From an uncultured Chloroflexota bacterium (GTDB lineage Bacteria; Chloroflexota; Chloroflexia; Chloroflexales; Chloroflexaceae): a stretch of DNA of 32,660 nt. The notes below the pieces were generated by a model, which saw nothing but the letters and a program-made list of their open reading frames with translations, was not told where the DNA came from and did not search any database. Made by a program: the position numbers and the translations under genes. Where the stretch lies: assembly GCA_937120965.1 (NCBI GenBank), contig CAKZKA010000219.1:1-32660 (forward strand), written 5' to 3'. The number at the start of each line of letters is the position of its first letter. Position 1 is the stretch's first letter. This document shows positions 16,450-32,419 of the stretch, piece after piece.

Positions 16450-16557
16450 CATCCTCCACACCTCCACCGGCGGGCGGTCGAACGACCCGACCACGCCCCT
16501 CAGGGAGGGGCGCGGGGAAACTTGATGTCTCCATATGTTCACCTCAGGAGCCTCGCT

Positions 16558-19500
16558 GTGACCGTCGCTGATCTGCCGCTTGCGCCGCCAGAGGTTGGCC
16601 AGCTCGTCCACGTGCGCGCCCGTACCTGGCTGGTGGATGAGGTGCTCCCGCCCGCTGTCCCCGGCCAGTCATGCCGGGTGCGCCTCGCCTGCGCCGATGA
16701 TGACGCCCAGGGCCAGTCGCTGGAGGTGCTCTGGGACTATGAGCCGGATCGCCGGATTCTGACCGATGCCGGCTGGGACGACCTGGCTACTCGCGGCTTC
16801 GACCCGCCGGATCGCTTCGCCGCGTTCCTCCATACGCTGCGCTGGAACTGCGTTACCGCTACCGATCCCACCCTCTTCCAGGCGCCCTTTCGCGCCGGGA
16901 TCAGGATTGATGCCTACCAGATGGAGCCGCTCCGTAAGGCGCTGCGCCTGCCGCGGGTGAACCTGTTTATCGCCGATGATACCGGCCTGGGCAAGACGAT
17001 CGAGGCCGGCCTGATTATGCGCGAGCTGCTGCTGCGCAAGAAGGTGCGCACCGTGGTCGTCGCCGCGCCGCCCGCGGTGCTCGAGCAGTGGCAGGCCGAG
17101 CTCGAGGAGCGCTTCGGGCTGGTCTTTGTGCTGCTGGATCGCGCCTACCTCACCCGCATGCGCCGCGAGCGGGGCTTCGGCGTTAACCCCTGGCGTACCC
17201 ACAGCCGCTTCCTGGTCTCCCATCGCCTGCTCGTTGACCCGATCTACGCCGACCCGCTGCGCGAGTGGCTCGGCGCCTTTCTGCCCGGGAGCCTCCTGGT
17301 GCTCGATGAGGCCCACCACGCCGCCCCGGCTTCCGGCGGGCGCTACGGCATCGAGTCCGGCTTCACCCGCGCTATCCGCGATCTCGCCGGCCGCTTCGAG
17401 CATCGCCTCTTCCTCTCGGCCACCCCGCATAATGGCCACTCCAATAGCTTCTCGACCCTGCTTGAGCTGCTCGACCCGGTGCGCTTCACCCGCGGTGTGA
17501 AGGTGACGAAGAAGGCCCTCGATGATGTGATGGTCCGCCGGCTCAAGGAGGATATCCGCGCGGTGCAGGGCGGCTTCCCGCTGCGCCGCGTGGTGCGCAT
17601 TGAGCTTGGCGGTCTTCCCCCCGATGCGCCCGAGCTGGTGCTCTCCACGCTGCTCGATGCGTACCGCACCCTGCGCGAGCAGCGCTTCGCCGATGCCTCG
17701 CGCCGCGCCCAGACCGCCGCCGGCCTGCTCACCGTTGGCCTCCAGCAGCGGCTGCTCTCTTCCATCGAGGCCTTCGCGCGCAGCCTGAAGGTCCACCGCG
17801 CCACCGTCGAGCGCCAGTGGGCTGCCCAGGACGCCGCGCTCCCTGAGAAGGCCGACTCGCTGCTGATGCGCGCCCCCGATGCCGATGACGAGCGTGGCCT
17901 GTGGGCCGCTGAGGAGCTGGAGGCGGCGGAGGCGGCGGAGATCGCCGCCGTTACGGCCGCCGGTGAAGCCGAGGCGCCCCGCTCTGCGCAGGCCGACAAC
18001 CTGCGCCGCCAGGAACAGGCCCTGCTCGACCGTATGCAGCAGATCGCCGAGCAGCACCGCCACATCCCCGATGCCAGGACCAGGTACCTGATCGACTGGA
18101 TCCGCGCCAATCTCTGCCCCGACCTGCCGCCCTTCGGCCAGCCGGTCTCTGGCCCGCCCCATTCGGCAAGCTCAGGGCAGGCCCCGCGCTGGAACAACCG
18201 CCGGGTGCTGATCTTCACTGAGAACCGCGAGGGCACCAGGCGCTTCCTGCTGAATATCCTCTCGCAGGCCATCGAGGGTACCGAGCGGGCCGATGAGCGC
18301 ATCGAGGTGATCGATGGCCTGACCAGCAGCGCCCGCCGCCAGGAGATCCAGCGCCGCTTCAATACCGACCCGGCCCTCGATCCGCTGCGCATCCTGCTCG
18401 CCACCGACGCCGCCCGCGAGGGCCTGAACTTCCAGGCCCACTGCGCCGACCTTTTCCATTTTGATCTGCCCTGGAACCCCGGCCGCATCGAGCAGCGCAA
18501 CGGCCGTATCGACCGCAAGCTGCAACCTGAAGCCGAGGTGCGCTGCCACTACTTCGTGCTGCCTCAGCGTGTCGAGGACCGCGTGCTCGAGGTGCTGGTG
18601 CGCAAGACCGAGACGATCAAGCGCGAGCTGGGCAGCCTCTCGAAGGTGATCGACGACGATATCGAGCGCCGGCTGCGCCAGGGCATCCGCCACCGCGAGG
18701 CCGCCGCTCTGGCCCGCGAGCTGGAGCAGGCCGACCTGGAGGCCCTCCGTCGCCAGAGTGTGGCCGCGGAGCTGGAGCAGGCCCGTGAGCGTGAGCGCGA
18801 CCTCCACGCCCAGATTGCGCGCTGCCAGTCGCTGCTGGAGAAGTCGAAGCGCTGGACCGGCTTCGCGGACGAGCCGTTCCGCAACGCCCTCTCCTGCGCC
18901 CTGGAGCTGCTCGGCGCGCCGCCCCTCCAGCGCGCCACTGCCGTCCACGGCCAGGAGGCCTGGCAGGTGCCGGCGCTCCACGAGCGCGTCGCTGCCGACC
19001 CGAGCTGGAACGCGACCCTCGATACGCTCCGCGCCCCCCGCACCGCCAACCAGAGCCTCACCGACTGGCGGCGCGAGGCGCCCATCCGCCCCGTGGTCTT
19101 TGCCGACGCCGGCGTGCTCACCGAGGAGACGGTGCATCTGCACCTGGAGCATCGCGTGGCCCAGCGCCTGCTGGCCCGCTTCCGCGCCCAGGGCTTTACC
19201 GCAGACCTGTCGCGGGCCTGCCTGCTCCAGTCCAGCGATGCTATTCCGCGGGTTGTGCTGCTCGGCCGGCTCTCGCTCTACGGCCAGGGCGCCGAGCGGC
19301 TCCACGAGGAACTGGTGGCGGTCACCGCCCGCTGGCTCGACCCTTCGCAGCGCAGCGGCCCGCTGACGCCCTACGGCCGCGACGGCGAGGCGCGCACCCT
19401 CCAGGTGCTCGATGAGGCGCTGCGCCGCGCCGGCCGCCAGCCGCCGGGCAGCGCCATCGAGCGGCGCTTGCTCGACACCGCCGCCGCCGATATCGCCGAC

Positions 19501-19854
19501 CTGCAGCCCCACCTCGCGCCGCGCGCCGAGCAGGCCGCCGACGACGCCATCGCCCAGCTCCGCCGGCGCGGCGAGCAGGAGGCCCGCGACCTCCAGAGTG
19601 CTATCGAGCAGCAGGCCCGTCGCGTGCGCGAGCAGCTTGAGCGCAGCCGCACCGAGTATCGCCAGTTGACCCTCGACTTCGATAAGGAGGAGGAGCGCCA
19701 GTTCCGGCTGGACCAGCGGGCCTGGGAGCTGCGCCTGGAGCAGTTCGAGCGCGAGCTGGCCAGCGAGCCGCAGCGCGTGCGCGCCTTCTACGAGGTGCGC
19801 GCGCAGCGCATCGAGCCCGTCGGGCTGATCTACCTCTGGCCGGAGACGAATTGA
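16558..19854 (+). CDS. drmD: DISARM class 1 SNF2-like helicase DrmD
   Basis: A 1098-residue SNF2-type DNA translocase, the class-defining component of class 1 DISARM. Walker A is DDTGLGKTIEAG (about 140-150), motif II is Asp250-Glu-Ala-His, and motif III SATPHNG follows. The C-terminal RecA lobe has IFTENREGTRRFL, ATDAAREGLNFQ (about 615), and RIEQRNGRIDR (about 644). A long helical C-terminal part rich in Arg/Glu/Gln follows (about 690-1090). I chose GTG 16558 because AGGAG lies 7 nt upstream. The ATG/TTG at 16525/16522 lies in a dispersed repeat (CCATATGTTCACCTCAGG). A 20-nt dispersed-repeat-like motif lies in frame at 18158-18177, in the linker before the second lobe. The stop overlaps the next small start as TGATG. 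Confidence 0.92.
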   Translation: MTVADLPLAPPEVGQLVHVRARTWLVDEVLPPAVPGQSCRVRLACADDDAQGQSLEVLWDYEPDRRILTDAGWDDLATRGFDPPDRFAAFLHTLRWNCVTATDPTLFQAPFRAGIRIDAYQMEPLRKALRLPRVNLFIADDTGLGKTIEAGLIMRELLLRKKVRTVVVAAPPAVLEQWQAELEERFGLVFVLLDRAYLTRMRRERGFGVNPWRTHSRFLVSHRLLVDPIYADPLREWLGAFLPGSLLVLDEAHHAAPASGGRYGIESGFTRAIRDLAGRFEHRLFLSATPHNGHSNSFSTLLELLDPVRFTRGVKVTKKALDDVMVRRLKEDIRAVQGGFPLRRVVRIELGGLPPDAPELVLSTLLDAYRTLREQRFADASRRAQTAAGLLTVGLQQRLLSSIEAFARSLKVHRATVERQWAAQDAALPEKADSLLMRAPDADDERGLWAAEELEAAEAAEIAAVTAAGEAEAPRSAQADNLRRQEQALLDRMQQIAEQHRHIPDARTRYLIDWIRANLCPDLPPFGQPVSGPPHSASSGQAPRWNNRRVLIFTENREGTRRFLLNILSQAIEGTERADERIEVIDGLTSSARRQEIQRRFNTDPALDPLRILLATDAAREGLNFQAHCADLFHFDLPWNPGRIEQRNGRIDRKLQPEAEVRCHYFVLPQRVEDRVLEVLVRKTETIKRELGSLSKVIDDDIERRLRQGIRHREAAALARELEQADLEALRRQSVAAELEQARERERDLHAQIARCQSLLEKSKRWTGFADEPFRNALSCALELLGAPPLQRATAVHGQEAWQVPALHERVAADPSWNATLDTLRAPRTANQSLTDWRREAPIRPVVFADAGVLTEETVHLHLEHRVAQRLLARFRAQGFTADLSRACLLQSSDAIPRVVLLGRLSLYGQGAERLHEELVAVTARWLDPSQRSGPLTPYGRDGEARTLQVLDEALRRAGRQPPGSAIERRLLDTAAADIADLQPHLAPRAEQAADDAIAQLRRRGEQEARDLQSAIEQQARRVREQLERSRTEYRQLTLDFDKEEERQFRLDQRAWELRLEQFERELASEPQRVRAFYEVRAQRIEPVGLIYLWPETN

Positions 19855-19985
19855 TGGATTTTGCCGCAAAGGAACGCAAAGAGCGCAAAAAATCTAGTTT
19901 ATCTTTCGTGTTCTTTACGTTCCTTTTCAGCCAACCATTGACAACGCCATTTTTCTACCACCTCGCCTGGCCGGAGACGCATTGA
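19854..19985 (+). CDS. Tiny ORF 1 between drmD and drmMI (43 aa), possible coupling peptide
   Basis: The ATG shares its A with the drmD stop (TGATG). GGAG at 19842-19845 lies 8 nt upstream, inside drmD. The 43-residue product has a very basic start (AAKERKERKK), then an aromatic hydrophobic middle (SLSFVFFTFLFS), and ends in AWPETH. That end copies the drmD C-terminus, because the repeat re-reads it. The stop overlaps the next ATG, again as TGATG. The peptide resembles a single-pass membrane segment, but its repeat origin makes a selected function doubtful. Its main role may be to carry ribosomes forward. Expression is inferred. Confidence 0.4.
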   Translation: MDFAAKERKERKKSSLSFVFFTFLFSQPLTTPFFYHLAWPETH

Positions 19986-20077
19986 TGGATTTGCTGCAAG
20001 AGAACGCAAAGAGCGCAAAGAACATCTTGTGTCTTTCGTGTTCTTTGCGTTCCGTTGTGGCCAACGCTACACCATGA
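19985..20077 (+). CDS. Tiny ORF 2 before drmMI (30 aa), possible coupling peptide
   Basis: This ORF starts in the stop of tiny ORF 1 (TGATG), with GGAG at 19973-19976, 8 nt upstream. Its stop TGA overlaps the drmMI ATG (ATGA). The 30 residues (MDLLQENAKSAKNIL, then CLSCSLRSVV and ANATP) begin like ORF 1 but leave its frame after a small indel. No family is recognised. As drmMI lacks a Shine-Dalgarno sequence, re-initiation from this ORF is a reasonable way to translate it. Confidence 0.42.
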   Translation: MDLLQENAKSAKNILCLSCSLRSVVANATP

Positions 20078-23000
20078 CAACGACGATTGACCCTGCTATC
20101 GCGGCTCACCTGGAATGGCTCGGCTTTGTGCGCCCGACGGGCCTGGTCGTCTCGGCGCCGGCCCTCGCCCGCGCTGGCGCCATCCTGCCCCGCAGCGACG
20201 CCGAGGGCCAGCGCCTGCTGATGGGCTGCCTGGCTGCCGACGCCGACCCGCCGCGGATCGCCGATTTCCACCACTTCGCCCGCACCGTCCTGGGCTGGAG
20301 CTTCGCGCCCCAGGGCTACGCCGGCGCGCCCATCCCGCCCGAGCTGGAGCTGGCCCTGCCCGAGTATGGCGAGACCCTCGCCCCCGATCTGGCGGTGCGC
20401 GAGCTGGAGCCGACCACGCATGGCTCGCCCTGGCAGATGCTCGTGCAGATCCTGCCCCCGGGTCAGGACTTCGACCGCGTGATGCGCGGCCACGGGCGCC
20501 TCGACGCCTCGCCCCACAGCCGCATGGAACGGCTGCTGCGCGCGACGGGCGTCGGCGCCGGCCTGCTCTGCAATGGCGAGGCCCTGCGCCTGATCTCCGC
20601 CCCGCGCGGCGAGAGTTCCGGCTGGCTCGATTTCCGCGTCGCCGAGATGCAGCAGACCGCCGGCCGCCCCATCGTTGCCGCGCTGCGCCTGCTGCTCAGC
20701 GAGCAGCGCCTGCTGGCCCTGCCCCGCGAGCAGCGCCTGGCTGCCCTGCTCGAGGCCAGCCGCACGTTCCAGAACGAGGTCAGCGAGCGCCTCGCCGAGC
20801 AGGTGCTCGAGGCCCTTTATGTGCTGCTGCGCGGCTTCCAGGCCGCCGATGCCGATAGCGGCGGCGCGCTCCTGCGCGATCTCCTCCGCGAGAACCCCGA
20901 CGCGGTCTACCGCGGGCTGCTCACGGTGATCCTGCGCCTGGTCTTCCTGCTCTACGCCGAGCAGCGCGACATGCTCCCCGAGGACGCCACCTGGGAGCAG
21001 GGCTACGCGCTGGCCGGCCTGTACGAGCGACTGCGCGAGGACGCCGCCCTCTACCCCGATACGATGCAGCAGCGCTACGGTGCCTGGGCCCACCTGCTCG
21101 CCCTCTTTCGCATGGTCCACGACGGCGTTCCCGAGCTGGGCCTGCCCCGCCGCCACGGCGTGCTCTTCGACCCCGACCGCTTCCCCTTCCTCGAGGGCCG
21201 CGCCGGCCCGCGCCAGATCCACCAGCGCATCAGCCCGCCGCGCGTGCCCGACGGCGCCGTCTATGCCGTCCTGGAGAAGTTGCTGGTCCTCGACGGCGAG
21301 CGCATCTCCTACCGCGCCCTCGATGTCGAGCAGATCGGCTCGGTCTACGAGACGATGATGGGCTTCCGCCTGGAGACGGCCACGGGCCGCGCGCTGGCCA
21401 TCCGCGCCGATACGCGCGGCGGTGCGCCGACGACGATCAGCCTGGACGCCCTGCTCGAGCAGGCCCCCGCCCAGCGCGCCAGGTGGCTCCAGGAGCAGAG
21501 CGGGCGCAGCCTCCCCGCCGGCGTGAGCAAGGCCCTGCCGGCGGCCAACAGCATCGAGGCCCTGCACGCCGCCCTGCGCCCGCTGGTGGACACCGCGGCC
21601 ACGCCCGATCTCGCCCCACCGGGGGCCATGGTGCTCCAGCCCAGTGTGGAGCGCCGCCGCTCCGGCTCCCACTACACCCCCCGCGCCCTCACCGAGCCGA
21701 TTGTGCGCGCCACCCTCGAGCCGATCCTGGCCCGCCTGCGCGGCCCCGCCGGCCTGCCGCCCCGCCCCGAGCAGATCCTCGACCTCAAAGTCTGCGACCC
21801 GGCCATGGGCTCCGGCGCCTTCCTCGTCGAAGCCTGTCGCCAGCTCGCCGACGCCCTGATCGAAGCCTGGCAGGCCCACGGCGGCCGCCCGCCCATCCCC
21901 CCCGACGAAGACGAGGTGATCTTCGCCCGGCGCCTGGTGGCCCGGCGCTGCCTCTACGGCGTAGACAAAAACCCCACCGCGGTGGACCTGGCCAGGGTCT
22001 CGCTCTGGCTGGTGACGCTGGCGAAAGAGCACCCCTTCACCTTCCTCGACCACGCCCTGCGCCACGGCGACTCGCTGCTGGGCCTGAGCCAGCGCCAGAT
22101 CGCCGCCTTCCACTGGCAGGACGAGGCGAAGCCGTTGCAGGAGGATTTCTACACCCGCGCCATCCGCGCGCAGGTCGAGCAGGCCGCCGCGCTGCGGGCC
22201 GAGATCCGCCACGCTGGCGAGGACGCCGGCGACGCCGCGCTGCGGGCGCTGTGGCGCGACGCCGACCAGGCCCTGGCCCGCGCGCGGCTGTACGGCGACC
22301 TGGTGGTGGCCGCCTTCTTCGAGGGCGGCAAGCCGAAGGAGCGCGAGCGGCAGCGCCTGGCCTACGCCGCCGAGGCCCTCGACGGCAGCGCCCACCGCCA
22401 CCTCGCCCGCCTCGAGGCGTGGCGCACCGCCGAGCTGCCCCTGGCGCCCTTCCACTGGGAGATCGAGTTCCCCGAAGTCTTCCAGCGCCCCAACCCCGGC
22501 TTCGATGCCGTGGTGGGCAACCCGCCGTTCGCCGGCAAGAATGCGACCAGCAGCGGCAATGTGGCGGGCTACCCCGACTGGCTCCAGCAGATCCACCCGG
22601 AGAGCCACGGCAACGCCGACCTGGTGGCCCATTTCTTCCGCCGCGCCTTCAACCTGCTCCGGCGCGACGGCGCCCTCGGCCTGATCGCCACCAACACCAT
22701 CGCCCAGGGCGACACCCGCAGCAGCGGCCTGCGCTGGATCTGCGCCCACGGCGGGGCGATCTACCACGCCCGCAAGCGGCTGAAGTGGCCGGGGCTGGCG
22801 GCGGTGGTCGTGAGCGTGGTGCACATCTGGAAGGGCCAGTACCACGGGCCGCGCTGCCTCGATGGGCAGGCGGTCGAGCGCATCAGCGCCTTCCTCTTCC
22901 ACCGCGGCGGGGACGACGACCCGCCCCGCCTCGCCGCCAACGCCGGGAAGAGCTACATCGGCAGCTATGTGCTCGGCATGGGCTTCACCTTCGACGACAC

Positions 23001-23997
23001 CGACACGAAGGGCATCGCCACGCCGCTGGCCGAGATGGAGCGGCTGATCGCCGCCAACCCGGCCTGCCGCGAGGTGATCTTCCCCTACCTCGGCGGCGAG
23101 GAGCTGAACAGCAGCCCGCGCCACGCCCACCACCGCTATGTGATCAACTTCGGCGCGCGCAGCGAGGCCGAGTGCCGCGCGCGCTGGCCGGAACTCATGG
23201 CCATCGTCGAGGCGAAGGTCAAGCCGGAGCGGATGCGGAATAATCGGGAGGTATACCGGCGGTACTGGTGGCAGTACGGCGAGAAGCGCGTCGATCTCTG
23301 GCGCGCCATCGCCCCGCTCGAGCGGGTGCTGGCTAACTCGCAGGTCAGTGCAAACCTGGCTTTCGCATTTCTCCCAACAGGCATGGTGTACGCCCACACG
23401 CTCAATGTGTTCCCCCTCTCCACCTACGCCGCCTTCTGCGCCCTCCAGGCGCGCCCCCACGAACTCTGGGCGCGCTTCTTCGGCTCATCGCTAGGGGATG
23501 GGCTGCGCTACACCCCCTCCGACTGCTTCGAGACCTTCCCCTTCCCGGCGGGCTGGGAGGCGCACCCGGGGCTGGAGGCGGCGGGCAAGGCATACTACGA
23601 CTACCGCGCGGCGCTGATGCTGCGCGCCAACGAGGGGCTGACGGCCATCTACAACCGCTTCCACGACCCCTACGAGCGCGACCCGGCCATCGAGCGGCTG
23701 CGCGAGCTGCACGCGGCGATGGACCGGGCGGTGCTGGCGGCCTATGGCTGGGGCGACATTCCGACCGACTGCGCGTTCTTGCTCGACTATGCGCTTGATG
23801 CGGAGGAGTGGGGCGGCAAGAAGAAGCCCTACCGCTACCGCTGGCCCGATGCGGTGCGCGATGAGGTGCTGGCGCGCCTGCTGGAGCTGAACGCGCAGCG
23901 CGCCCGTGAGGAGAAGCTGATGGGCCAGGTGAAGCCGGGGGGCGGGGGCAGGCGGGGCCGCCCGGCGGACGGCATGCGCGACATGTTTGAGGAGTGA
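20074..23997 (+). CDS. drmMI: DISARM class 1 adenine-specific DNA methyltransferase DrmMI
   Basis: A 1307-residue N6-adenine methyltransferase that marks host DNA as self in class 1 DISARM. The N-terminal 500 or so residues are a helical region of the type seen in type IIG/PglX-like methylases. The catalytic part begins with RRSGSHYTPRALTEPIV. Motif I follows as CDPAMGSGAFLVEACRQLAD (Asp575), and motif IV is NPPF at 816-819 (DAVVGNPPFAGKN). The C-terminal part contains DNA-recognition-like sequence (YLGGEELNSSPR, YTPSDCFETFPFPAG). No nuclease motif stands out, so it looks like a methylase alone. The start at 20074 matches the first conserved-looking residues. Upstream in-frame codons to 20029 lie in a hairpin repeat. 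It has no clear ribosome binding site and overlaps tiny ORF 2. A 606-bp gap separates it from drmA. Confidence 0.92.
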   Translation: MTTTIDPAIAAHLEWLGFVRPTGLVVSAPALARAGAILPRSDAEGQRLLMGCLAADADPPRIADFHHFARTVLGWSFAPQGYAGAPIPPELELALPEYGETLAPDLAVRELEPTTHGSPWQMLVQILPPGQDFDRVMRGHGRLDASPHSRMERLLRATGVGAGLLCNGEALRLISAPRGESSGWLDFRVAEMQQTAGRPIVAALRLLLSEQRLLALPREQRLAALLEASRTFQNEVSERLAEQVLEALYVLLRGFQAADADSGGALLRDLLRENPDAVYRGLLTVILRLVFLLYAEQRDMLPEDATWEQGYALAGLYERLREDAALYPDTMQQRYGAWAHLLALFRMVHDGVPELGLPRRHGVLFDPDRFPFLEGRAGPRQIHQRISPPRVPDGAVYAVLEKLLVLDGERISYRALDVEQIGSVYETMMGFRLETATGRALAIRADTRGGAPTTISLDALLEQAPAQRARWLQEQSGRSLPAGVSKALPAANSIEALHAALRPLVDTAATPDLAPPGAMVLQPSVERRRSGSHYTPRALTEPIVRATLEPILARLRGPAGLPPRPEQILDLKVCDPAMGSGAFLVEACRQLADALIEAWQAHGGRPPIPPDEDEVIFARRLVARRCLYGVDKNPTAVDLARVSLWLVTLAKEHPFTFLDHALRHGDSLLGLSQRQIAAFHWQDEAKPLQEDFYTRAIRAQVEQAAALRAEIRHAGEDAGDAALRALWRDADQALARARLYGDLVVAAFFEGGKPKERERQRLAYAAEALDGSAHRHLARLEAWRTAELPLAPFHWEIEFPEVFQRPNPGFDAVVGNPPFAGKNATSSGNVAGYPDWLQQIHPESHGNADLVAHFFRRAFNLLRRDGALGLIATNTIAQGDTRSSGLRWICAHGGAIYHARKRLKWPGLAAVVVSVVHIWKGQYHGPRCLDGQAVERISAFLFHRGGDDDPPRLAANAGKSYIGSYVLGMGFTFDDTDTKGIATPLAEMERLIAANPACREVIFPYLGGEELNSSPRHAHHRYVINFGARSEAECRARWPELMAIVEAKVKPERMRNNREVYRRYWWQYGEKRVDLWRAIAPLERVLANSQVSANLAFAFLPTGMVYAHTLNVFPLSTYAAFCALQARPHELWARFFGSSLGDGLRYTPSDCFETFPFPAGWEAHPGLEAAGKAYYDYRAALMLRANEGLTAIYNRFHDPYERDPAIERLRELHAAMDRAVLAAYGWGDIPTDCAFLLDYALDAEEWGGKKKPYRYRWPDAVRDEVLARLLELNAQRAREEKLMGQVKPGGGGRRGRPADGMRDMFEE

Positions 23998-24088
23998 GCC
24001 GCGAGAGAACACTGGCCGCGAGAGAACTCTGGCCGCGAAAGAACACAAGGAACACAAAGTTGGGAAGGAGGAAGGGGGAAGTGATACC

Positions 24089-24343
24089 ATTTTAGATTGT
24101 GGATTTTGGATTGCAGATTGTCGCGCACGGCGTCCAGGTGCGCTTTGACCCACCGCTGCTTGCGGAGTGTTCAACTGAAAGTGGTATGAGAAGTGGGAAG
24201 TGAGAAGTGGGAAGTGGGAGGTGGGAGGTGGGAGGTGGGAGGTGATACCAATTACCGTTGATGATGCCGCATTGCTTGAAGCGGTTTCAGGCGTTGTGCT
24301 GCCCAGCGTGGCAATCCGCAATCCAAAATCCAAAATCTAAAAT
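24089..24343. mobile_element. MITE-like element with 37-bp inverted repeats
   Basis: The left end 24089-24125 (ATTTTAGATTGTGGATTTTG...) matches the reverse complement of 24307-24343 at 33 of 37 positions. The enclosed 181 bp has no full ORF. Two stretches read like protein fragments (VQVRFDPPLLAE; TVDDAALLEAVSGVV). No target-site duplication is obvious, so transposition is unproven. The terminal AATC/TAAA octamers recur before drmB. Confidence 0.5.
24206..24243 (+). repeat. GTGGGAG heptamer array with G-quadruplex potential
   Basis: Five GGG tracts lie at exact 7-nt spacing (24209, 24216, 24223, 24230, 24237) with loops AAGT or AGGT. This meets the usual pattern for an intramolecular G-quadruplex. 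If drmMI and drmA share a transcript, the G-rich strand is in the RNA. Confidence 0.75.
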
Positions 24344-24603
24344 AGTGTGAGAAGTGGGAGGTGAGAAGGGGGAAGTGGGAAGGGGGTACGGACGTGGTAT
24401 ATGGGCGCCGCTATAATCACACCTGATCTCTGTGTTCTTTGCGTTCTTTTGTGGCTAATGTTCGTTCGTGGCCAGTGTTCTTTTGATCAACTTTGGCTCG
24501 TTCAAGTTCGAGATTAAGAAGTACATTATGACCCCGCGCCCCACAGGAACGGAATGAGCGCCCCAACCCATCTACTTTGCGCTCTTTGCGTTCTTTCGCG
24601 GCT

Positions 24604-27600
24604 ATGAGCAAGAAGCCTATGACCACCACCCCACCAACCCTCGCCGTGCGCGCGCAGCTTGTCGAGGCGCTCAGGCTCGACCTGATCGGCCCCGGCGCCG
24701 GGCGCCCCCTGGCTGCCGAGCAGCTCCCCGAGACGTTGCGCCCGGCCACCTGGTACCTGACCGGCTTCCTCATCCCCTCCGGCACCCCTGCCGCGCAGGC
24801 TTGCGATCCCGATGAAGACGACGAACCGGAGACGGTCGCCGCGCAGGCCGGCCTCGACCAGGAGGCCCAGGAGGACCGCCGGGCGGCCAGGAAGGGCTTC
24901 TTCCCCTCGTCCATCGGCCTGACCTTCCTGGTCTCCGCCGAGACCCACGCGCTCACCGTCACCTTCCGCTGGGGCGACTACCGGCTCGAGGCGCCGGAGC
25001 CGTCGGAGCAGACGGGGCATGATCGCGCGCATATCGCGCCGAGCGCCAGCGAAGCGTCCCGGTTGTCTGACGCCAGGACCCTTCGCGGCGCTCAGGGTGA
25101 CAGGAGTCTCGGTGAGAATACCGATGCAGTGTCTCAGGATGACCAGCCGGCATCAACTGACGGCGCTGCTGCGAACCCTCAGGGCGGCAAGGAGCAGCCG
25201 AAGGTCTGGCAGCGCATTCAGCGCGAGGAGTCGCTGCGCGTGGCGCTGAGTGGCGTCCCGCACGCCGTGCGGGACGTGCCGAACTCGGGTGGCTTGCAGT
25301 ACCAGGTGATCGAACGCCCGATCAGTGTCCTCGGGCGCAACCTGCCCCTGCCGCCGGGCGTCCGCGCCGTCTCGATTTACTTTATCAACAACCGCCCGCC
25401 CGCGCACGACCCGCCCGATCCGGCCTACGCCTTCCAGGCGGAGATCGAGGTGCGCAGCGAGCAACCCTTCGTGGCTCGCCCCGACCTGAGCGGCGTGCAG
25501 GCCCAGGAGTGGGACGACCTGGTGGCCGATCTGCACTACGCCGGCATCCCGGAGTATGCCGTCGGCCACGCCGTCTCCGCCGACTGGGAGCTGTGCGACG
25601 GCGCGTGCCGGCTCCTGCGCACGGCCTGGATCCCGAGCGCCGAAGTCGAGAAGACCGTCACCGTCACCGTGCCGGGCGTCGAGCTGCGCATGGACGCGCT
25701 GGGCGCCCTGGCCGACGGCGCGGCAGCCGAGGCGGCCCTGCGTCCGCTGGTCGCCGCCTACCGCGGCTGGCTGGACGGGCAGGAGGCCGCGGCGGCGCAA
25801 CTCGAGGGAACCCGACGCGAGACCGCGATGGAGCTGGTCCGTCAGGCCCGGCGCGCCGCCGCGCGCATCGAGCGCGGCATTGACCTGCTGGCCCGCTCGC
25901 CCGAGGCCCTCGACGCCTTCTGCACCGCCAACCGGGCGGTGGCCCGCGCCCTGCGCACGCGCAACGGCATCGAGCACCCTCAGTGGCGCGCCTTCCAGCT
26001 CGCCTTCATCCTGCTCAACCTGCCCGGCCTGGCCGACCCGGGCGACAGCGACCGCGCCACGGTTGACCTGCTCTTCTTCCCCACCGGCGGCGGCAAGACC
26101 GAGGCCTACCTGGGGCTGGCCGCCTTCGCCATGGTGCTGCGCCGCTTGCGCCATCCCGACGACGACGGCAAGGCCGGCGCCGGCGTAAGTGTGATTATGC
26201 GCTACACCCTCCGCCTCCTCACCCTCGACCAGCTCGCACGCGCCGCCGGCCTGGTCTGCGCCCTGGAGCTGGAGCGCGCAGCGGCGCCGGAGCGCTACGG
26301 CGCATGGCCCTTCGAGATCGGCCTCTGGGTCGGCAAAGGCGCGACCCCGAACACACTGGGCGAGAAGGGCGACAAACGGGACGACACCGCCCGCGCCCTG
26401 CTGCGGCGCTACAAGAGCAACCCGCGGGGCAACCCCGCGCCGATCCCGCTGGAGAGCTGCCCCTGGTGCGGCACGCGCTTTACGCCCGCCTCGTTCAGCC
26501 TGCTGCCCAACGACGACAAGCCAAACGAGCTACGCATCGTCTGTAGCAACTTCGCCTGCGACTTCACCCGCCAGCGCCCGCTGCCCATCCTCGCCGTTGA
26601 CGAGGCGATCTACCGCCGCCTACCGGCCTTCCTGATCGCCACGGTGGACAAATTCGCCACCCTGCCCTGGACCGGACCCAGCGGCGCGCTACTCGGCGGC
26701 GCCGACCGTCACGACAGCGCCGGCTTCTACGGGGCCGCCGAGCCGAAGCGAGGCCAACCGCTCAGCCAGCCGCTGGCCCCGCCCGACCTGATCATCCAGG
26801 ACGAACTGCACCTGATCTCCGGCCCCCTGGGCACCATGGCCGGCCTCTACGAGACCGTGATTGACGCGCTGTGCGCGCGCGAGCTTGACGGAGCGAAGAT
26901 CGGCCCGAAGATCGTCGCCTCGACGGCCACCGTGCGCCGGGCGCAGGACCAGATCCAGGCCCTTTTCGGCCGCTCGCTCACCCAGATCTTCCCCCCGCCC
27001 GGCCCGGATCGGCGCGACTCATTCTTCGCGCGCACCGCGCCCGCCAGCGAAACGCCGGCCCGCCAGTACCTCGGCATCGCCGCCCAGGGCCGCAGCCCCA
27101 AAGTCATGATGCGCAAAGCCTGGCTGGCCCTGATGGGCGCCGCCCAGCGCGCCTATCTCGATGCCGGCGGCGATGGCAACGCCGAGAACCCCGCCGACCC
27201 CTACATGACCGTGCTCGGCTACTTCAACAACCTGCGCGAACTCGGCGGCGCGCGGCGCATCCTCGAGGAAGAGGTGCAGAACACCGTCAAGAGCTACGGC
27301 AGCCGCAAGCGCGTTAACGAGACTGTGGGACTCTTCGCCGACCGTACCCGCTTCAGCGAGGTGCTCGAACTGACCTCGCGCGTCTCCACCGACCAGGTGG
27401 CCGAGGCCCGCCGTCGCCTGGGCGCGCCCTTCCACCAGCTCGACGACCGGGTTGACTGCGCCCTGGCCACCAACATGATCTCGGTTGGTCTCGACATCCC
27501 GCGCCTCGGCCTGATGCTGGTCATCGGCCAGCCCATGCTTACCGCCGAGTACATCCAGGCCACCAGCCGCGTCGGGCGCGACGACCGCCGCCCGGGGCTG

Positions 27601-28173
27601 GTCGTCACCCTGCTCAACATCCACAAACCGCGCGACCGCTCGCACTACGAGCGCTTCCGCCACTACCACGAGACCTTCTACCGCTCCGTCGAGGCCACCA
27701 GCGTCACCCCCTTCGCGGCCCGCGCCCTCGACCGTGGCTTTGCCGGGGCGCTGGTGGCCCTGGCCCGCCACGCCGAGCCGTCGCTCAGCCCGCCGGACGG
27801 CGTGGCCCGGATCGCGCAGGTGCGCGCGACCCTCGAGGGCTATCTCATCGACATCTTTCAGCAGCGCGTGCGGCTCCAGGCCTTCGACGCCGCCGAATGC
27901 AACGAGCGGCTGCGCGCGGTGCAGAACCGCGTCGTTGACCTGCTCGACGCCTGGCGGCAGATCATCGAGGCGTACCAGGAGGCCGGGGTGGCCGTGCAGT
28001 ACCAGGCCTACGAGGGCAGCCGCAACGCCAGGCCGCTGCTGCGCGACCCGCTGGAGAAGACCTTCGACTCGGACCACGCGCGCAAGTTCCGCGCCGGCCG
28101 CTCGCTCCGCGACGTCGAGCCTGACGTCAACCTCTTCCTGCGCGACGCCAACAACCAGCCGGTGGAAGAATAA
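24604..28173 (+). CDS. drmA: DISARM core helicase DrmA
   Basis: A 1189-residue helicase, one of three DISARM core proteins; in studied systems it forms a DNA-loading complex with DrmB. Walker A is FFPTGGGKTEAY (Lys498), and motif II is Asp733-Glu-Leu-His in IIQDELHLISGPLG. The second lobe has ATNMISVGLDIPRLGLM and EYIQATSRVGRD (about 985). A zinc ribbon (Cys619, Cys622, Cys647, Cys652) lies between the motor motifs. Residues about 140-197 are a low-complexity Ser/Asp/Gln-rich insert, partly made of a dispersed DNA repeat read in frame. ATG 24604 directly follows a CTTTGCGTTCTTT repeat and lacks a ribosome site. ATG 24619 (MTTTPP) is a credible alternative. It lies 134 bp before drmB. Confidence 0.92.
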   Translation: MSKKPMTTTPPTLAVRAQLVEALRLDLIGPGAGRPLAAEQLPETLRPATWYLTGFLIPSGTPAAQACDPDEDDEPETVAAQAGLDQEAQEDRRAARKGFFPSSIGLTFLVSAETHALTVTFRWGDYRLEAPEPSEQTGHDRAHIAPSASEASRLSDARTLRGAQGDRSLGENTDAVSQDDQPASTDGAAANPQGGKEQPKVWQRIQREESLRVALSGVPHAVRDVPNSGGLQYQVIERPISVLGRNLPLPPGVRAVSIYFINNRPPAHDPPDPAYAFQAEIEVRSEQPFVARPDLSGVQAQEWDDLVADLHYAGIPEYAVGHAVSADWELCDGACRLLRTAWIPSAEVEKTVTVTVPGVELRMDALGALADGAAAEAALRPLVAAYRGWLDGQEAAAAQLEGTRRETAMELVRQARRAAARIERGIDLLARSPEALDAFCTANRAVARALRTRNGIEHPQWRAFQLAFILLNLPGLADPGDSDRATVDLLFFPTGGGKTEAYLGLAAFAMVLRRLRHPDDDGKAGAGVSVIMRYTLRLLTLDQLARAAGLVCALELERAAAPERYGAWPFEIGLWVGKGATPNTLGEKGDKRDDTARALLRRYKSNPRGNPAPIPLESCPWCGTRFTPASFSLLPNDDKPNELRIVCSNFACDFTRQRPLPILAVDEAIYRRLPAFLIATVDKFATLPWTGPSGALLGGADRHDSAGFYGAAEPKRGQPLSQPLAPPDLIIQDELHLISGPLGTMAGLYETVIDALCARELDGAKIGPKIVASTATVRRAQDQIQALFGRSLTQIFPPPGPDRRDSFFARTAPASETPARQYLGIAAQGRSPKVMMRKAWLALMGAAQRAYLDAGGDGNAENPADPYMTVLGYFNNLRELGGARRILEEEVQNTVKSYGSRKRVNETVGLFADRTRFSEVLELTSRVSTDQVAEARRRLGAPFHQLDDRVDCALATNMISVGLDIPRLGLMLVIGQPMLTAEYIQATSRVGRDDRRPGLVVTLLNIHKPRDRSHYERFRHYHETFYRSVEATSVTPFAARALDRGFAGALVALARHAEPSLSPPDGVARIAQVRATLEGYLIDIFQQRVRLQAFDAAECNERLRAVQNRVVDLLDAWRQIIEAYQEAGVAVQYQAYEGSRNARPLLRDPLEKTFDSDHARKFRAGRSLRDVEPDVNLFLRDANNQPVEE
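25045..25103 (-). repeat. Dispersed repeat embedded in frame in drmA
   Basis: On the minus strand this begins GTCACCCTGAGCGCCGCGAA and then GGGTCC, matching the intergenic copy at 8559-8588 with few changes. It encodes part of a flexible-looking segment (SEASRLSDARTLRGAQGD) without breaking the frame. Confidence 0.65.
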
Positions 28174-28279
28174 TCCCAGATGGAATATGGAGACACCGCA
28201 TCGTTCAGATCGTCCCCACAACTCTGCTCCACCCAGGGCTCTGTGGAGCTGTAGCGCTGTGGAAGCGCAGAACCGTCCA

Positions 28280-28307
28280 CAATCTAAAATCTAAAATCTA
28301 AAATCGT
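28280..28307 (+). repeat. (AATCTAAA)n octamers abutting the drmB start
   Basis: Three tandem AATCTAAA units end two or three bases before the drmB ATG, where a ribosome binding site would normally lie. The same octamer is found at the ends of the inverted-repeat element between drmMI and drmA. The AT-rich, unstructured tract could allow ribosome entry without a Shine-Dalgarno sequence. A GCTCCAC/GTGGAGC hairpin lies about 45 bp further upstream. Confidence 0.65.
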
Positions 28308-30101
28308 ATGCCTAAAAAACCACACGGACAACTTCGCCGCAGCCAGCTCCTGACCACCTACGGGCCAGGCGCGCTCTTCGACCTGCCGCGCCACTCGGCG
28401 ATTGTCGGCGGCCTCGACGCCTGGCCGAAGCCAGGCGATCTTGAGGAGATCAGCGAGCCACGCCTGGCGCGCAAGATCCAGCAGATCACGCAGGTGATCA
28501 ACCCCAGGCTCTACGCGCCGCCGGCCGCCGACGACACCCCGGGCGCTGCGCCCATCGGCATCGGCGTCTACCGCTTCCCCGAATGGTTCGTCGTCCAGGA
28601 GGACAGCGCGCCGGGCGCCCGCAGTCGCTCGCGACGCCTGGCGCATCGCAAAGCCCTCGACACGCGCAGCCGCTTCGAGGGCAAGCCAGTGGTCGCCACC
28701 CGCTTCGTGGCCGCCTGCTCCCACGGCCACGTTGACGATATCAACTGGCGCGTCTTCGTCCACGGCAGCACCGACTGCCGGCGCCAGCTCTGGCTGGACG
28801 AACTCGGCACCAGCGGCGACCTGGGCGACCTGGTGGTGCGCTGCGAGTGCGGCAAACAGCGCCGGATGATCGAGGCGACCAATCGCGACGCGCGCCCCCT
28901 GGGGCTCTGCACCGGGCGGCGACCATGGCTGGGGCCGAACAGCAACGAGCCCTGCGGCGAGCAGGCGCGCCTGCTGATCCGCACCGCCTCCAACGCCTAC
29001 TTCGCCCAGGCGCTCACCGTGCTCTCCATCCCCGAGCGCGACAGCGCCATTGACGGGGTGGTGGAGGAATTGTGGGGCGAGCTGGAGGTTGTCGAGCAGG
29101 CCTATGACCTCGGCGTGGTGAAACGCAAGGCCCGGGTCGCCCAGAAGCTGGCGCCCTTCGCCGACAACGAGATCCTGGCCGCGATCAGCCGCAAGCGCAG
29201 CGGGACACTCCAGCCCGAGAAGCCGCTCAAACAGGTCGAACTCGACGCCATCCTGGCCGCGCCGGAGGGCTACGGCGAGGATGTGCCGCTCAACGAAGAC
29301 TTCCACGTTCGGCGGCTGCCAGAGCACGTCTGGCGGCGCAGCGCGAGCAGCGCCGGCATCGCGGCGGTCTACCAGCTCCACCGGCTGCGCGAGGTGATGG
29401 CGCTGATCGGCTTCACGCGCTTCGAGGCGATCACCCCCGACATCAACGGCGAGTACGATCAGGAAGTCGAGCGCGCCGCGCTCGCCATCGAGCCGGGCTG
29501 GTTCCCGGCGGTCGAGAACCGCGGCGAGGGCATCTTCGTGCAGGTAGACGGTCAGGCCATCGGCCAGTGGCTGGAGCGACCGGCGGTGCAGCGACGCGTG
29601 GCGGCCCTGCTCGCCGGCCACGAGCAGTGGCAGATGAAGCGCAACACAACGCGCGACTTTCTGGGCGGCCCCTACATCCTGCTGCACACCCTCTCGCACA
29701 TGCTGCTCCAATCGCTGGCGCTGCGCTGCGGCTACCCCATGAGCGCCATCCGCGAACGGATCTACGCCGACCCGCAGGAGGGGCGCTACGGCATCCTGCT
29801 CTACACCGGCAGCCCCGACGCGGGCGGCACGCTTGGCGGGCTGGTGCAACAGGCGCGGGCAATTGAGGAGCATCTCGACCACGCCCTGCGCGCGGCGATG
29901 CTCTGCTCCAACGACCCGATCTGCGCCCAGCACACCCCCGACGACCCGCTGGAGGAGCGCTGGCTGCTGGGCGCGGCCTGCCACGGCTGTGTCCTGGTTG
30001 GCGAGCCCTCGTGCGAGATGCGTAACGACTACCTGGACCGCGCGCTGGTTGTCCCCGTGCTGGGCCTGGAGGACGCGGCCTTCTTCAACCCCGGGCTATG
30101 A
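28308..30101 (+). CDS. drmB: DISARM core protein DrmB (DUF1998)
   Basis: A 597-residue protein, partner of DrmA in the DISARM core complex. The N-terminus LRRSQLLTTYGPGALFDLP is characteristic of DrmB-like proteins. A Cys/His group follows in the first half (CSHGH, CRR, CECG). The C-terminal DUF1998 domain (about 460-585) starts near HTLSHMLLQSLALRCGYP. It carries the zinc-binding set Cys533, Cys539, Cys558, Cys561 and Cys569 in the pattern CxxxxxC...CxxC...SCE, ending NDYLDRAL. No catalytic motif is expected or seen. The ATG has no ribosome binding site; AATCTAAA repeats precede it. Its stop overlaps the drmC start as ATGA. Confidence 0.93.
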   Translation: MPKKPHGQLRRSQLLTTYGPGALFDLPRHSAIVGGLDAWPKPGDLEEISEPRLARKIQQITQVINPRLYAPPAADDTPGAAPIGIGVYRFPEWFVVQEDSAPGARSRSRRLAHRKALDTRSRFEGKPVVATRFVAACSHGHVDDINWRVFVHGSTDCRRQLWLDELGTSGDLGDLVVRCECGKQRRMIEATNRDARPLGLCTGRRPWLGPNSNEPCGEQARLLIRTASNAYFAQALTVLSIPERDSAIDGVVEELWGELEVVEQAYDLGVVKRKARVAQKLAPFADNEILAAISRKRSGTLQPEKPLKQVELDAILAAPEGYGEDVPLNEDFHVRRLPEHVWRRSASSAGIAAVYQLHRLREVMALIGFTRFEAITPDINGEYDQEVERAALAIEPGWFPAVENRGEGIFVQVDGQAIGQWLERPAVQRRVAALLAGHEQWQMKRNTTRDFLGGPYILLHTLSHMLLQSLALRCGYPMSAIRERIYADPQEGRYGILLYTGSPDAGGTLGGLVQQARAIEEHLDHALRAAMLCSNDPICAQHTPDDPLEERWLLGAACHGCVLVGEPSCEMRNDYLDRALVVPVLGLEDAAFFNPGL

Positions 30102-30895
30102 ACGACGTGCTGCTCGATCTGCCGTCCGGCACACGCGCGAAGCTCATCGCGGCGCTCGAGGGCGGCCATCTCGACCTGACGACCGGCCCCATCGGGCTGC
30201 GGGCCGCCCTGGGCCGCCTCGACAACCCCGAGGCAATCGCCGGCGCCCTGCGCGAGCTGCACGCGCTGGGCATGAGCGCCCGCGGAGCCGCAGCCGCGCT
30301 GCGGGCCATTGAACGGGTCATAGCGCGGCAACGCAAGCCCGACCTGGTGCTGTCGGGGTTGCAGGTTCCGGGCACATATGCGCGCGACACCCGCATCGTC
30401 TACGACGAACTGCTCGGCGCCGCCGAACGCAGCGTCTGGCTGAGCAGCTTCGTCTACCACAACGGGCCAAAGGTCTTCGAGACCCTGGCGCAGCGCATGG
30501 ACGAGCGACCGGAGTTGCAGGTCAACCTCCTGTTAAACATCCAGCGCCGGTGGGGCGATACAACCAGCAGCGAGCATCTGATCAGCGCCTTCGCGCACAC
30601 CTTCTGGCAGCAGGCCTGGCCGGGCCGCCGGCGTCCGCGGGTCTACTACGACCCGCGCTCCGTCGAGATCGACACGCCGGGCGCCGGGTCGAGCGGCAGA
30701 GCAGTGCTGCACGCCAAAGCGGCAGTGGTTGACGACGAGGCCCTCTTCATCACCTCGGCCAACCTGACCGAGGCGGCCAGCGCGCGCAACATCGAGCTGG
30801 GCGTACTACTCCGCGACCGCAGCATAGCCCTCACCGTAGTCAGCTACTTCCAGCGCCTGATCGACACCGAACATCTGCGGCTGCTGCCAGGGTGA
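30098..30895 (+). CDS. drmC: DISARM phospholipase D-like protein DrmC
   Basis: A 265-residue protein of the PLD superfamily, the last DISARM core gene and a presumed nuclease. One HKD motif is visible: His205-Ala-Lys207 ... Asp212, followed by ITSANLTEAA and RNIELGVLL, the usual PLD continuation. A single HKD motif means two chains are needed for one active site. The N-terminal 95 or so residues are helical and include a possible helix-hairpin-like segment (LRELHALGMSARGAAAAL). The 4-bp ATGA overlap with drmB indicates coupled translation. A strong hairpin lies 92 bp downstream and may end the operon. Confidence 0.92.
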   Translation: MNDVLLDLPSGTRAKLIAALEGGHLDLTTGPIGLRAALGRLDNPEAIAGALRELHALGMSARGAAAALRAIERVIARQRKPDLVLSGLQVPGTYARDTRIVYDELLGAAERSVWLSSFVYHNGPKVFETLAQRMDERPELQVNLLLNIQRRWGDTTSSEHLISAFAHTFWQQAWPGRRRPRVYYDPRSVEIDTPGAGSSGRAVLHAKAAVVDDEALFITSANLTEAASARNIELGVLLRDRSIALTVVSYFQRLIDTEHLRLLPG

Positions 30896-30986
30896 GGCCG
30901 CGGAGCGCCCGGCTCCACATCCACCGCGGGGCCGAAGGACCAGCAGCGCATCAGAACGCCATCCGCCAGAAACGCTCCACCCGAAA

Positions 30987-31013
30987 GGAAGGGGAAACCC
31001 GCTTTCCCCTTCC
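30987..31013 (+). terminator. Perfect 11-bp hairpin downstream of the DISARM operon
   Basis: GGAAGGGGAAA (30987-30997) pairs perfectly with TTTCCCCTTCC (31003-31013) across loop CCCGC. It contains a variant of the GGGGAAACCCGGTTTCCCC core. There is no T-run after it, so it may act as a weak terminator, an mRNA end stabiliser, or simply be a repeat copy. Confidence 0.4.
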
Positions 31014-31121
31014 CCAACCCCGAACGCTGACAGATTCCCCTTATTTCTTAAACACCGCGATTGACAGCAATTTTACAGCAAATCTGTGCAAGACCCTCTA
31101 GGATTCTTCGTTCTTATTGGA

Positions 31122-31127
31122 TATAAT
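31122..31127 (+). promoter_or_regulatory. Putative -10 box for the L,D-transpeptidase gene
   Basis: A consensus TATAAT lies in GGATATAATGG. No good -35 box is found 16-18 bp upstream. A TTGACA at 31061 is too far away to pair with it. If used, transcription would start near 31134, just before the first leader hairpin. Confidence 0.4.
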
Positions 31128-31135
31128 GGAAAAAA

Positions 31136-31177
31136 TGTCGCGTAGCGACAGTTACAACTGTAAAGTGTAACGTCGCT
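31136..31177 (+). promoter_or_regulatory. Leader with two mutually exclusive hairpins
   Basis: Hairpin 1 is TGTCGC-GTA-GCGACA (31136-31150). Hairpin 2 pairs AGCGAC and GTTACA (31144-31149, 31151-31156) with TGTAAC and GTCGCT (31166-31171, 31172-31177). It is a 12-bp stem with a one-base bulge. The GCGAC segment is needed by both, so only one can form. The TTACA-AC-TGTAA palindrome could also be a protein site. Hairpin 2 ends 9 nt before the GAGG ribosome site. Confidence 0.5.
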
Positions 31178-31195
31178 CAAATGTGCGAGGATCGT

Positions 31196-32419
31196 ATGCA
31201 GAGCCGCCGCCTTATGCCGGCGCTTGCGCTGACGCTCGCCGCGCTCTGCCTGGGCGCGGGGATGGGTTGGGCGCGCGCCGCTGCCGTCCGGCGCCCCGCC
31301 GCCGATTTTCCCGCCCCGATGAGCTACGCCGAGGCCCGCAACGTCGTCGAAACCGCCCGCGCCCGCGAGACCGCGCTCCGGGCAGCGGCCCGGCAACAGG
31401 TATCAGCCATTGACCCGGCGCAATTGCCGCTGCTCCAGACGATCTACTTTCCTGCGACCGGACACCATCTGAGCAATCGCAGCGGCTTTCTCGACTTCTG
31501 GCGCGCCAACGGGCAGCTTCACATCTTCGGCTATCCAATCACCGAGGAGTTTGTCGAGCAGGGCCGGATCGTGCAGTACTTCGAGCGCGCCCGCTTCGAG
31601 TATAGCCCGGAGCACGCCGGCACGCCCGATCAAGTGCAACTCGGACTGCTGGGCCGCGAAATCCTCGAGGTGCAGGGCTTCCCCGGCGGTATTGATGACC
31701 CCCAGAATGGCGCCCGCTATTTTCCCGAAACGCGCCACAGCCTCTGGGGCGAGTTTCGCCGCGTGTGGGAGCGCCGCGGCGACCTGCGCATCTTCGGCTA
31801 TCCGCTCAGCGAGGTGGTGGACGAAGACGGGCGCAGCGTGCAGTACTTCGAGCGGGCCAGGTTCGTCTACTTCCCCGAGGATCTGCCCCCCTTCTTCCAG
31901 AGCATGCAGGCCGCCAACGGCTTCAATCTCAGCAGCCTGTTCGAGGTGCAGTTCAGCGACCTGGGGCGCCAACTGGCCAACCTCCGCGGCCTGAACATCG
32001 CCCCCGTACCTCAACTCGACGGCGCGCTCATCTGGGACCCCGCGATCTGGGAGCGCCGGATCGAGGTCAATTTGAGCGAGCAGTGGCTCAGCGCATACGA
32101 AGGCGATCTACTGGTCTTTCGCGCGCCCGTTGCCACCGGACGCGATGGCTTCAACACCCCGGTCGGCGACTATGCCATCTACGCGAAGTACGATATGCAG
32201 ACCATGTTCGGCTGCATGGGCGGCGAGTGCTGGAACGTGCCGAACATCCCCTGGGTGCAGTACGTGGTGGGCGGCGTGGCGCTTCACGGCACCTACTGGC
32301 ACAACAGCCACGGCACCGGCGTGCGCCCGTCCCACGGCTGCATCAATCTGCGCATCGAAGATGCCCAGTGGCTCTACGAGTGGGCCGACGTAGGCACGCG
32401 CGTGGTGATCAGCTATTAA
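31196..32419 (+). CDS. Secreted L,D-transpeptidase (YkuD domain) with two FGYP-type repeats
   Basis: A 407-residue exported protein predicted to cross-link or modify peptidoglycan outside the membrane. A signal peptide (MPALALTLAALCLGAGMGWARA) is followed by two copies of a roughly 70-residue module. Copy 1 is about 83-150, with FWRANGQLHIFGYPITEEF and VQYFERARFEYSPE. Copy 2 is about 173-230, with VWERRGDLRIFGYPLSEVV and VQYFERARFVYFPE. To my knowledge this module is typical of Chloroflexota surface proteins and may bind the cell wall. The YkuD domain (about 278-407) has VALHGTYWHN and the catalytic SHGCINLR with Cys382. I chose ATG 31196, with GAGG 5 nt upstream, over ATG 31181. It is probably independent of the DISARM operon. 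Confidence 0.9.
   Translation: MQSRRLMPALALTLAALCLGAGMGWARAAAVRRPAADFPAPMSYAEARNVVETARARETALRAAARQQVSAIDPAQLPLLQTIYFPATGHHLSNRSGFLDFWRANGQLHIFGYPITEEFVEQGRIVQYFERARFEYSPEHAGTPDQVQLGLLGREILEVQGFPGGIDDPQNGARYFPETRHSLWGEFRRVWERRGDLRIFGYPLSEVVDEDGRSVQYFERARFVYFPEDLPPFFQSMQAANGFNLSSLFEVQFSDLGRQLANLRGLNIAPVPQLDGALIWDPAIWERRIEVNLSEQWLSAYEGDLLVFRAPVATGRDGFNTPVGDYAIYAKYDMQTMFGCMGGECWNVPNIPWVQYVVGGVALHGTYWHNSHGTGVRPSHGCINLRIEDAQWLYEWADVGTRVVISY

Follow-up and report, generated by a model that had tools for sequence, protein, structure and literature searches.

Results

The locus and its promoter

The window analysed here, a stretch of 32,660 nucleotides from an uncultured member of the Chloroflexaceae, corresponds to contig G000:C219 in a genome of 5.18 Mb, and the records encoding close protein relatives bear the names Chloroflexaceae, Chloroflexales, Chloroflexi, Viridilinea, Kouleothrix and Chloroflexus. 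It carries an L,D-transpeptidase (YkuD) gene, directly preceded on the forward strand by a DISARM-like defence gene set (16522-30895, PADLOC matches) that ends 300 bases before it (Table 1). The DISARM genes were considered as partners of the L,D-transpeptidase gene and rejected, as no DISARM protein matched in the stretches from seven relatives; the stretches of G003 and G006 reach less than 1 kb upstream of the gene, so this test counts for the remaining five relatives, in which several kb upstream are covered. The DNA conserved in the genus begins at 31065-31067, past the end of the DISARM gene set. A direct repeat, TTGACAGCAA/TTTACAGCAA, with a spacing of 11 bases, lies at 31061-31081; judged by eye, the three congeners lack it.

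There are two in-frame ATG codons at the beginning of the gene, at 31181 and 31196, and the latter is the likelier start codon. An in-frame N-terminal extension from the ATG in three congeners was judged unlikely because the alignment with close orthologues beyond the genus begins near the second ATG. The GCGAGGA word that includes the ribosome site is identical in all four congeners. By eye, the ribosome site seemingly lies in the loop of a small hairpin that overlaps or adjoins the start codon (31181-31198); a hairpin of this kind seems to occupy the same place in L012 (G016) and L014 (G032), with stem letters that differ among g1, G032 and G016.

Forty-four orthologues were collected, one each from 44 of 65 genomes, a second gene copy in G016 (L101) being left out of the count. 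Eight of them lack an exact TATAAT and were dropped from the tests anchored on this word, which leaves 36 sequences in 17 genera. A preliminary description of this DNA had placed a TATAAT promoter before the first of two leader stems, and the exact word found before these 36 orthologues supports that view: the core of 31072-31191 may be regarded as a sigma-70-like promoter. Since the TATAAT ends at 31127, transcription presumably starts near 31134. In the region of the CTCTAG box, a 6-mer scan gave CCTCTA and CTAGTC in three genera each, which is the shuffled level. An antisense promoter using TTTACA on the minus strand was also considered and rejected, since reading the anchored promoters revealed no -10 element at the right distance.

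Table 1. Positions of the genes, promoter elements, words and pairing segments discussed in the text
Feature	Position	Strand	Evidence or remark
DrmD	16522-19854	+	PADLOC match
DrmMI	20029-23997	+	PADLOC match
DrmA	24577-28173	+	PADLOC match
DrmB	28308-30101	+	PADLOC match
DrmC	30098-30895	+	PADLOC match
TTTACA, upstream half-site	31072-31077	+	begins 50 bases ahead of TATAAT; reverse complement of TGTAAA 31159-31164
CTCTAG, -35 region, partly conserved	31096-31101	+	CTAG-like boxes in several genera (by eye)
TATAAT, promoter -10 element	31122-31127	+	exact TATAAT upstream of 36/44 orthologues
Putative 11-codon upstream frame, MSRSDSYNCKV	31135-31170	+	starts near expected transcription start
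Stem 1 (segments 1 and 2), TGTCGC 31136-31141 / GCGACA 31145-31150	31136-31150	+	loop 31142-31144
Stem 2, lower half, AGCGAC 31144-31149 / GTCGCT 31172-31177	31144-31177	+	bulge 31150
Stem 2, upper half, GTTACA 31151-31156 / TGTAAC 31166-31171		+	loop 31157-31165
21-base block GTTACAACTGTAAAGTGTAAC	31151-31171	+	unchanged in four congeners, loop included
TGTAAA	31159-31164	+	31 bases after TATAAT; most widely common word downstream
Segment 3, GTCGC	31172-31176	+	pairs with segment 2, or partly (31173-31176) with 31185-31188
GCGAGGA, segment 4 (GCGA 31185-31188) and ribosome site (GAGGA 31187-31191)	31185-31191	+	segment and ribosome site overlap
L,D-transpeptidase (YkuD) gene	31196-32419	+	PF03734, E 6.7e-25

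Competing stems in the leader

The two stems reported in the preliminary description are real and have the segment GCGAC (31145-31149) in common, and the second does lie just before the ribosome site, nine bases away from it. Their mutual exclusion, also reported, holds for the lower half of stem 2 alone, since the upper half is paired in both states. In G000, the full stem 2 reaches -20.4 kcal/mol and stem 1 together with the upper half of stem 2 reaches -19.0 kcal/mol; the free fold favours the full stem 2, and forcing stem 1 costs 1.4 kcal/mol. This cost is low because the upper half keeps its pairs and 31173-31176 finds a new partner in 31185-31188. This third pairing, at the edge of the ribosome site, makes a switch between pairings 1:2, 2:3 and 3:4 physically plausible. 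The state with stem 1 is better by 2.5 kcal/mol in G004 and by 1.6 kcal/mol in G003, and is 9.5 kcal/mol worse in G002.

The folding of the leader as a whole is modestly unusual compared with chance, with z-scores of -1.66 over 75 nt (13 of 200 shuffles as good), -2.16 over 135 nt (3 of 200) and -2.32 over 65 nt (3 of 300). For the 34 nt around TGTAAA, folding gave p=0.002 against flank shuffles. Two overlapping stems of 5 bp arose in 5,062 of 1,407,000 dinucleotide shuffles of 31128-31184, and the two stems with the third pairing onto the ribosome site in 68 of 1,407,000, each criterion having been set after the sequence had been seen. Such stem pairs are not rare in the window's own DNA, where they occur in 476 of 13,042 overlapping stretches, at 97 distinct places on both strands. 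Read on the minus strand, stem 1 is followed by TTTTTT (31150-31130), and the two together resemble a weak terminator of transcription directed against the gene.

The gene and its promoter are present in four of the five genomes of the genus and were not found in the fifth, G001, which is rated 97% complete. The leader alignment of these four congeners has 53 invariant columns out of 68, and the GTTACAACTGTAAAGTGTAAC block is its longest invariant run (permutation p=0.028). The motif GTTACA-N9-TGTAAC has a single exact copy in its own genome; with up to two mismatches allowed, it gave 28 matches there, compared with 43 for the reversed control, per strand. In the four-sequence alignment, 95.8% of cells are paired in either stem. 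Stem 1 is broken once, in G002, and has no double change; stem 2 has a single double change (C-G in G000 but U-A in the other three), one broken pair at its base in G003 and a broken outermost pair in G004. Neither stem stands clearly above shuffles, which reached the observed pairing in 357 of 500 cases for stem 1 and 123 of 500 for stem 2, and because the alignment consists of four sequences of one genus, these pair counts are weak.

Stem conservation in relatives had been named beforehand as a check on the two hairpins, and the breaks in G002 and in G003 speak against it. Moreover, we folded 16 of the 36 anchored leaders, selected by us, four from the genus and 12 from outside it, and the exclusive stem pair was not seen in the 12 orthologue leaders outside the genus. 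Judging from these leaders, the competition between stem 1 and stem 2 is peculiar to the genus and lies outside what is conserved.

Words kept around the promoter across the family

Ten of the 36 anchored orthologues, representing 6 of the 17 genera, have TGTAAA at 31-34 bases downstream of TATAAT. In 2000 shuffles, the mean count was 0.09 and the maximum 2, for an offset band that was chosen after looking. An unbiased 6-mer scan also returned TGTAAA as the commonest downstream word, in six genera compared with a best of four in 60 shuffled scans. The leader around the word has diverged between genera and TGTAAA keeps its 31-34 base offset from the promoter; its distance to the start codon varies among orthologues.

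Upstream of the promoter, TTTACA stands at -49/-50 in seven of the 36 anchored orthologues and 4 of the 17 genera, and all seven also have TGTAAA. Taken alone, it is barely beyond shuffles: the upstream word ATTGCA is likewise found in four genera and one of the 60 shuffled scans reached four too, which leaves the upstream site with far less support than the downstream one. Common ancestry alone accounts for part of the co-occurrence of the two words, and the two half-sites have only 6-8 bases in common. In G006, TTTACA is at -30, and in G020, TGTAAA is at +26 from the start of TATAAT, which corresponds to shifts of about two and about one helical turns, respectively.

The complete pattern, TTTACA-N42..46-TATAAT-N29..35-TGTAAA, was found in 7 of 41 family genomes, once in each and always at this gene, and its reversed control gave no match. 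Either half-pattern with TATAAT occurs elsewhere at about the control rate. TATAAT-N29..35-TGTAAA matched 52 times in the 41 genomes; 10 of these matches are at this gene, and the other 42 compare with 36 for the reversed control. TTTACA-N42..45-TATAAT matched 24 times, with 7 matches at this gene and 17 at other places, the control giving 19. In the five genomes of the genus, TTTACA-N79..84-TGTAAA matched, beyond this promoter, an ftsZ-adjacent place in all five and one place in G004, with no match for the control. The palindrome TGTAAA-N3-TTTACA, with at most one mismatch, was found at 10 places in the genus, compared with 5 for the control, and four of the 10 are the ftsZ-side place.

This ftsZ-side place was rejected as a second copy of the site: both words lie within one predicted transcript, after another promoter, and it was therefore judged to be a different thing. 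It belongs to a second leader (L173:2237-2440, in G000:C53, minus strand), kept in all five genomes of the genus and located between a malic-enzyme-like gene and ftsZ, both named from reading the translations. The promoter of this leader reads TTGACA-N17-TATAAT; the leader also has a long hairpin rich in GC, recurring TACGA/TCGTA words and GTGTAAA, and it precedes a conserved frame of 73-74 residues that begins with MKPRRWYSS. It had no Rfam match at gathering score and is a candidate structured leader.

Discussion

We propose that 31072-31191 is the regulatory region of the single L,D-transpeptidase gene, with a gene-specific site that flanks the promoter and is most likely bound by a putative DNA-binding protein, a tentative reading to which we assign a probability of about 0.4. 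One such protein would occupy both TGTAAA, among the earliest bases of the expected transcript, and TTTACA, 87 bp apart from centre to centre, and would control the intervening promoter, possibly as a repressor, by blocking or looping. An ordinary regulator site seems to us more likely here than a conserved RNA switch. G016, G032 and G014 keep TGTAAA without a significant hairpin around it, which argues for an operator, and the inverted TTTACA twin lies outside the expected transcript, which argues for reading as DNA. The preliminary description had suggested a repressor that reads the palindromes. A repressor is indeed what TGTAAA and the inverted TTTACA at a fixed distance fit better, but the conserved part is the words and not the stems; the downstream site sits in a palindrome in this genus, and the transcript of this palindrome folds into stem 2. 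Several observations count against an operator. TGTAAA is missing at 31-34 bases in 26 of the 36 anchored orthologues, and no other gene in the 41 genomes carries the exact pattern. Operators are seldom restricted to a single gene, except where their regulator has only that gene to control. Moreover, TGTAAA stands at a hairpin tip, on unrelated stems, in three of seven genera, and an operator leaves these hairpins unexplained. The spacing does not decide between RNA and DNA, as a site at a constant distance from the promoter is equally at a constant distance from the 5' end.

Because of these three genera, there is room for a role of the RNA itself, in which the early transcript would show UGUAAA(G) at the tip of a hairpin, either to be recognised by a protein or another RNA, or in a hairpin that protects the message. 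We regard this as possible, albeit doubtful. In g1, the 34 bases around TGTAAA beat flank shuffles in four of four sequences (p 0.001-0.033), and one pair of the upper stem has a probability of at least 0.92 in all four congeners. Hairpins at TGTAAA are also found in G006 of g3 (p=0.003) and G035 of g5 (p=0.011), with unrelated stem letters, and none of 101 other TGTAAA sites reached p<=0.011 or -13.9 kcal/mol; these were 101 of 112 places, the 11 from this gene being removed and the ftsZ-side loci left out, with 300 shuffles for each background site and 1000 in the TGTAAA hairpin test. However, four of the seven genera, namely g13, g11 (two sequences), g17 and g2, have no TGTAAA hairpin (p 0.335-0.875), and in g5 only one of five anchored sequences has TGTAAA. 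The size and register of the loop differ between g1, g3 and g5, the folds predicted for g1 and G006 draw part of TGTAAA into pairing, and the only double change is within the genus. In Rfam, the best score for 30900-31400 was 25.5 bits, at the gene start, against a gathering score of 67.9, and a search of L025, L029, L012 and L014 up to E 1 gave only sub-threshold microRNA models (L029 3450-3580). A riboswitch or other catalogued RNA was rejected, with no Rfam family at gathering score. Hairpins with other letters were also observed at the place of stem 1, 6-26 nt after TATAAT, in L014 (G032, p=0.083) and L017 (G014, p=0.026); they hint at a possible 5'-end hairpin in these two genomes.

It is unlikely that the locus is a plain promoter at which TGTAAA is inherited and functionless and the palindromes are due to chance. 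The modest folding z-score, the absence of TGTAAA from 26 of the 36 orthologues and the frequency of overlapping stems in this GC-rich DNA (the 476 stretches mentioned above) would all be expected under this explanation. Nevertheless, it has to face the fact that the leader has diverged between genera, yet TGTAAA has been kept at 31-34 bases, and that the seven matches of the complete pattern in whole genomes all fall at this gene.

The preliminary description had also considered the leader to be built for a structural switch. The energies given above make this physically possible, but the broken stem 1 of G002 and the broken base of stem 2 in G003 weaken it. In its most explicit form, an ermC-like translational switch, one state would combine pairings 1:2 and 3:4, the latter masking the edge of the ribosome site, the other state would consist of 2:3 and leave the site free, and ribosomes on the 11-codon frame would choose the state. 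We consider it improbable. The segments GTCGC, GCGAC, GTCGC and GCGA do alternate, the two states are 1.4-2.5 kcal/mol apart in G000, G003 and G004, the 3:4 pairing is a hairpin of 6 bp in G004, and all three pairings together were rare in shuffles (the 68 cases noted above, with their criterion set afterwards). The frame ends one base before segment 3 and starts with ATG in G000, G003 and G004 and with ATA in G002, where this ATG and stem 1 are both lost. On the other hand, the three pairings are complete only in G000 and G004: G002 lacks 1:2 and is 9.5 kcal/mol worse, and in G003, segment 3 carries a change that disrupts 3:4 and makes 2:3 weaker. These pairings were not seen in the 12 leaders folded outside the genus either. 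Furthermore, 3:4 overlaps the ribosome site by two bases, and the mean unpaired probability of this site is 0.58-0.64 in all four congeners; as its openness is alike in the four, the predicted change is small. No ribosome site is evident for the frame, much of whose sequence is already dictated by the invariant block. Given the end of TATAAT and the expected start of transcription, the frame could be leaderless. In that case, the position of the ribosome would decide between two partners for segment 3, namely segment 2 and the ribosome site, and the UGUAAA tip would be a further recognition point, a combination that we rate as slightly less probable again. Finally, the transcription attenuator that the preliminary description had named in its title, suggested by mutually exclusive stems in a short leader, can practically be dismissed, because a consensus-based terminator scan of the forward strand at 30900-31300 found no hairpin followed by a T run; CAAATG comes after stem 2, and the only T run after stem 1 is on the minus strand.

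If the paired site that we favour is real, it would provide a testable control site for an enzyme of cell-wall cross-linking in Chloroflexaceae. Among the literature matches listed, we saw no work on leader or operator control of an L,D-transpeptidase gene in Chloroflexi or Chloroflexaceae, which does not prove its absence. Our analysis also carries the lesson that competing hairpins should be compared with relatives before a switch is named.

Comparison with known systems

The leader resembles the ermC attenuator in its four alternating segments, its putative leader frame and the position of its last segment at the ribosome site. It differs in that 3:4 is weak, incomplete in two of four congeners and not seen outside the genus, and in that the frame is predicted from sequence. 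A hairpin at the expected 5' end, as formed by stem 1 and similarly in G032 and G014, recalls the 5'-terminal stabilising hairpins of the ompA type; unlike these, stem 1 is broken in G002, and a combined test over 17 genera, with the first sequence of each, gave p=0.048. The WalR box of Gram-positive cell-wall genes, with the consensus TGTWAH-N5-TGTWAH, likewise places a TGTAAA core before a cell-wall gene. Among the anchored promoters, a reading by eye showed the 11-base tandem in G000 alone, where the minus strand has a copy with a mismatch (TGTAAA-N5-TGTCAA) that the congeners lack, and we rejected membership of the WalR regulon on the basis of this tandem. The paired site proposed here is to be compared with the operators OE and OI of galE and O3 and O1 of lac in E. 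coli. The paired operators of the gal and lac operons control the promoter by blocking or looping. Here, the half-sites have only 6-8 bases, the repressor is a putative one and the exact pattern is found at a single gene per genome; the likeness lies in two inverted sites that flank a promoter with a fixed spacing, about 90 bp apart.
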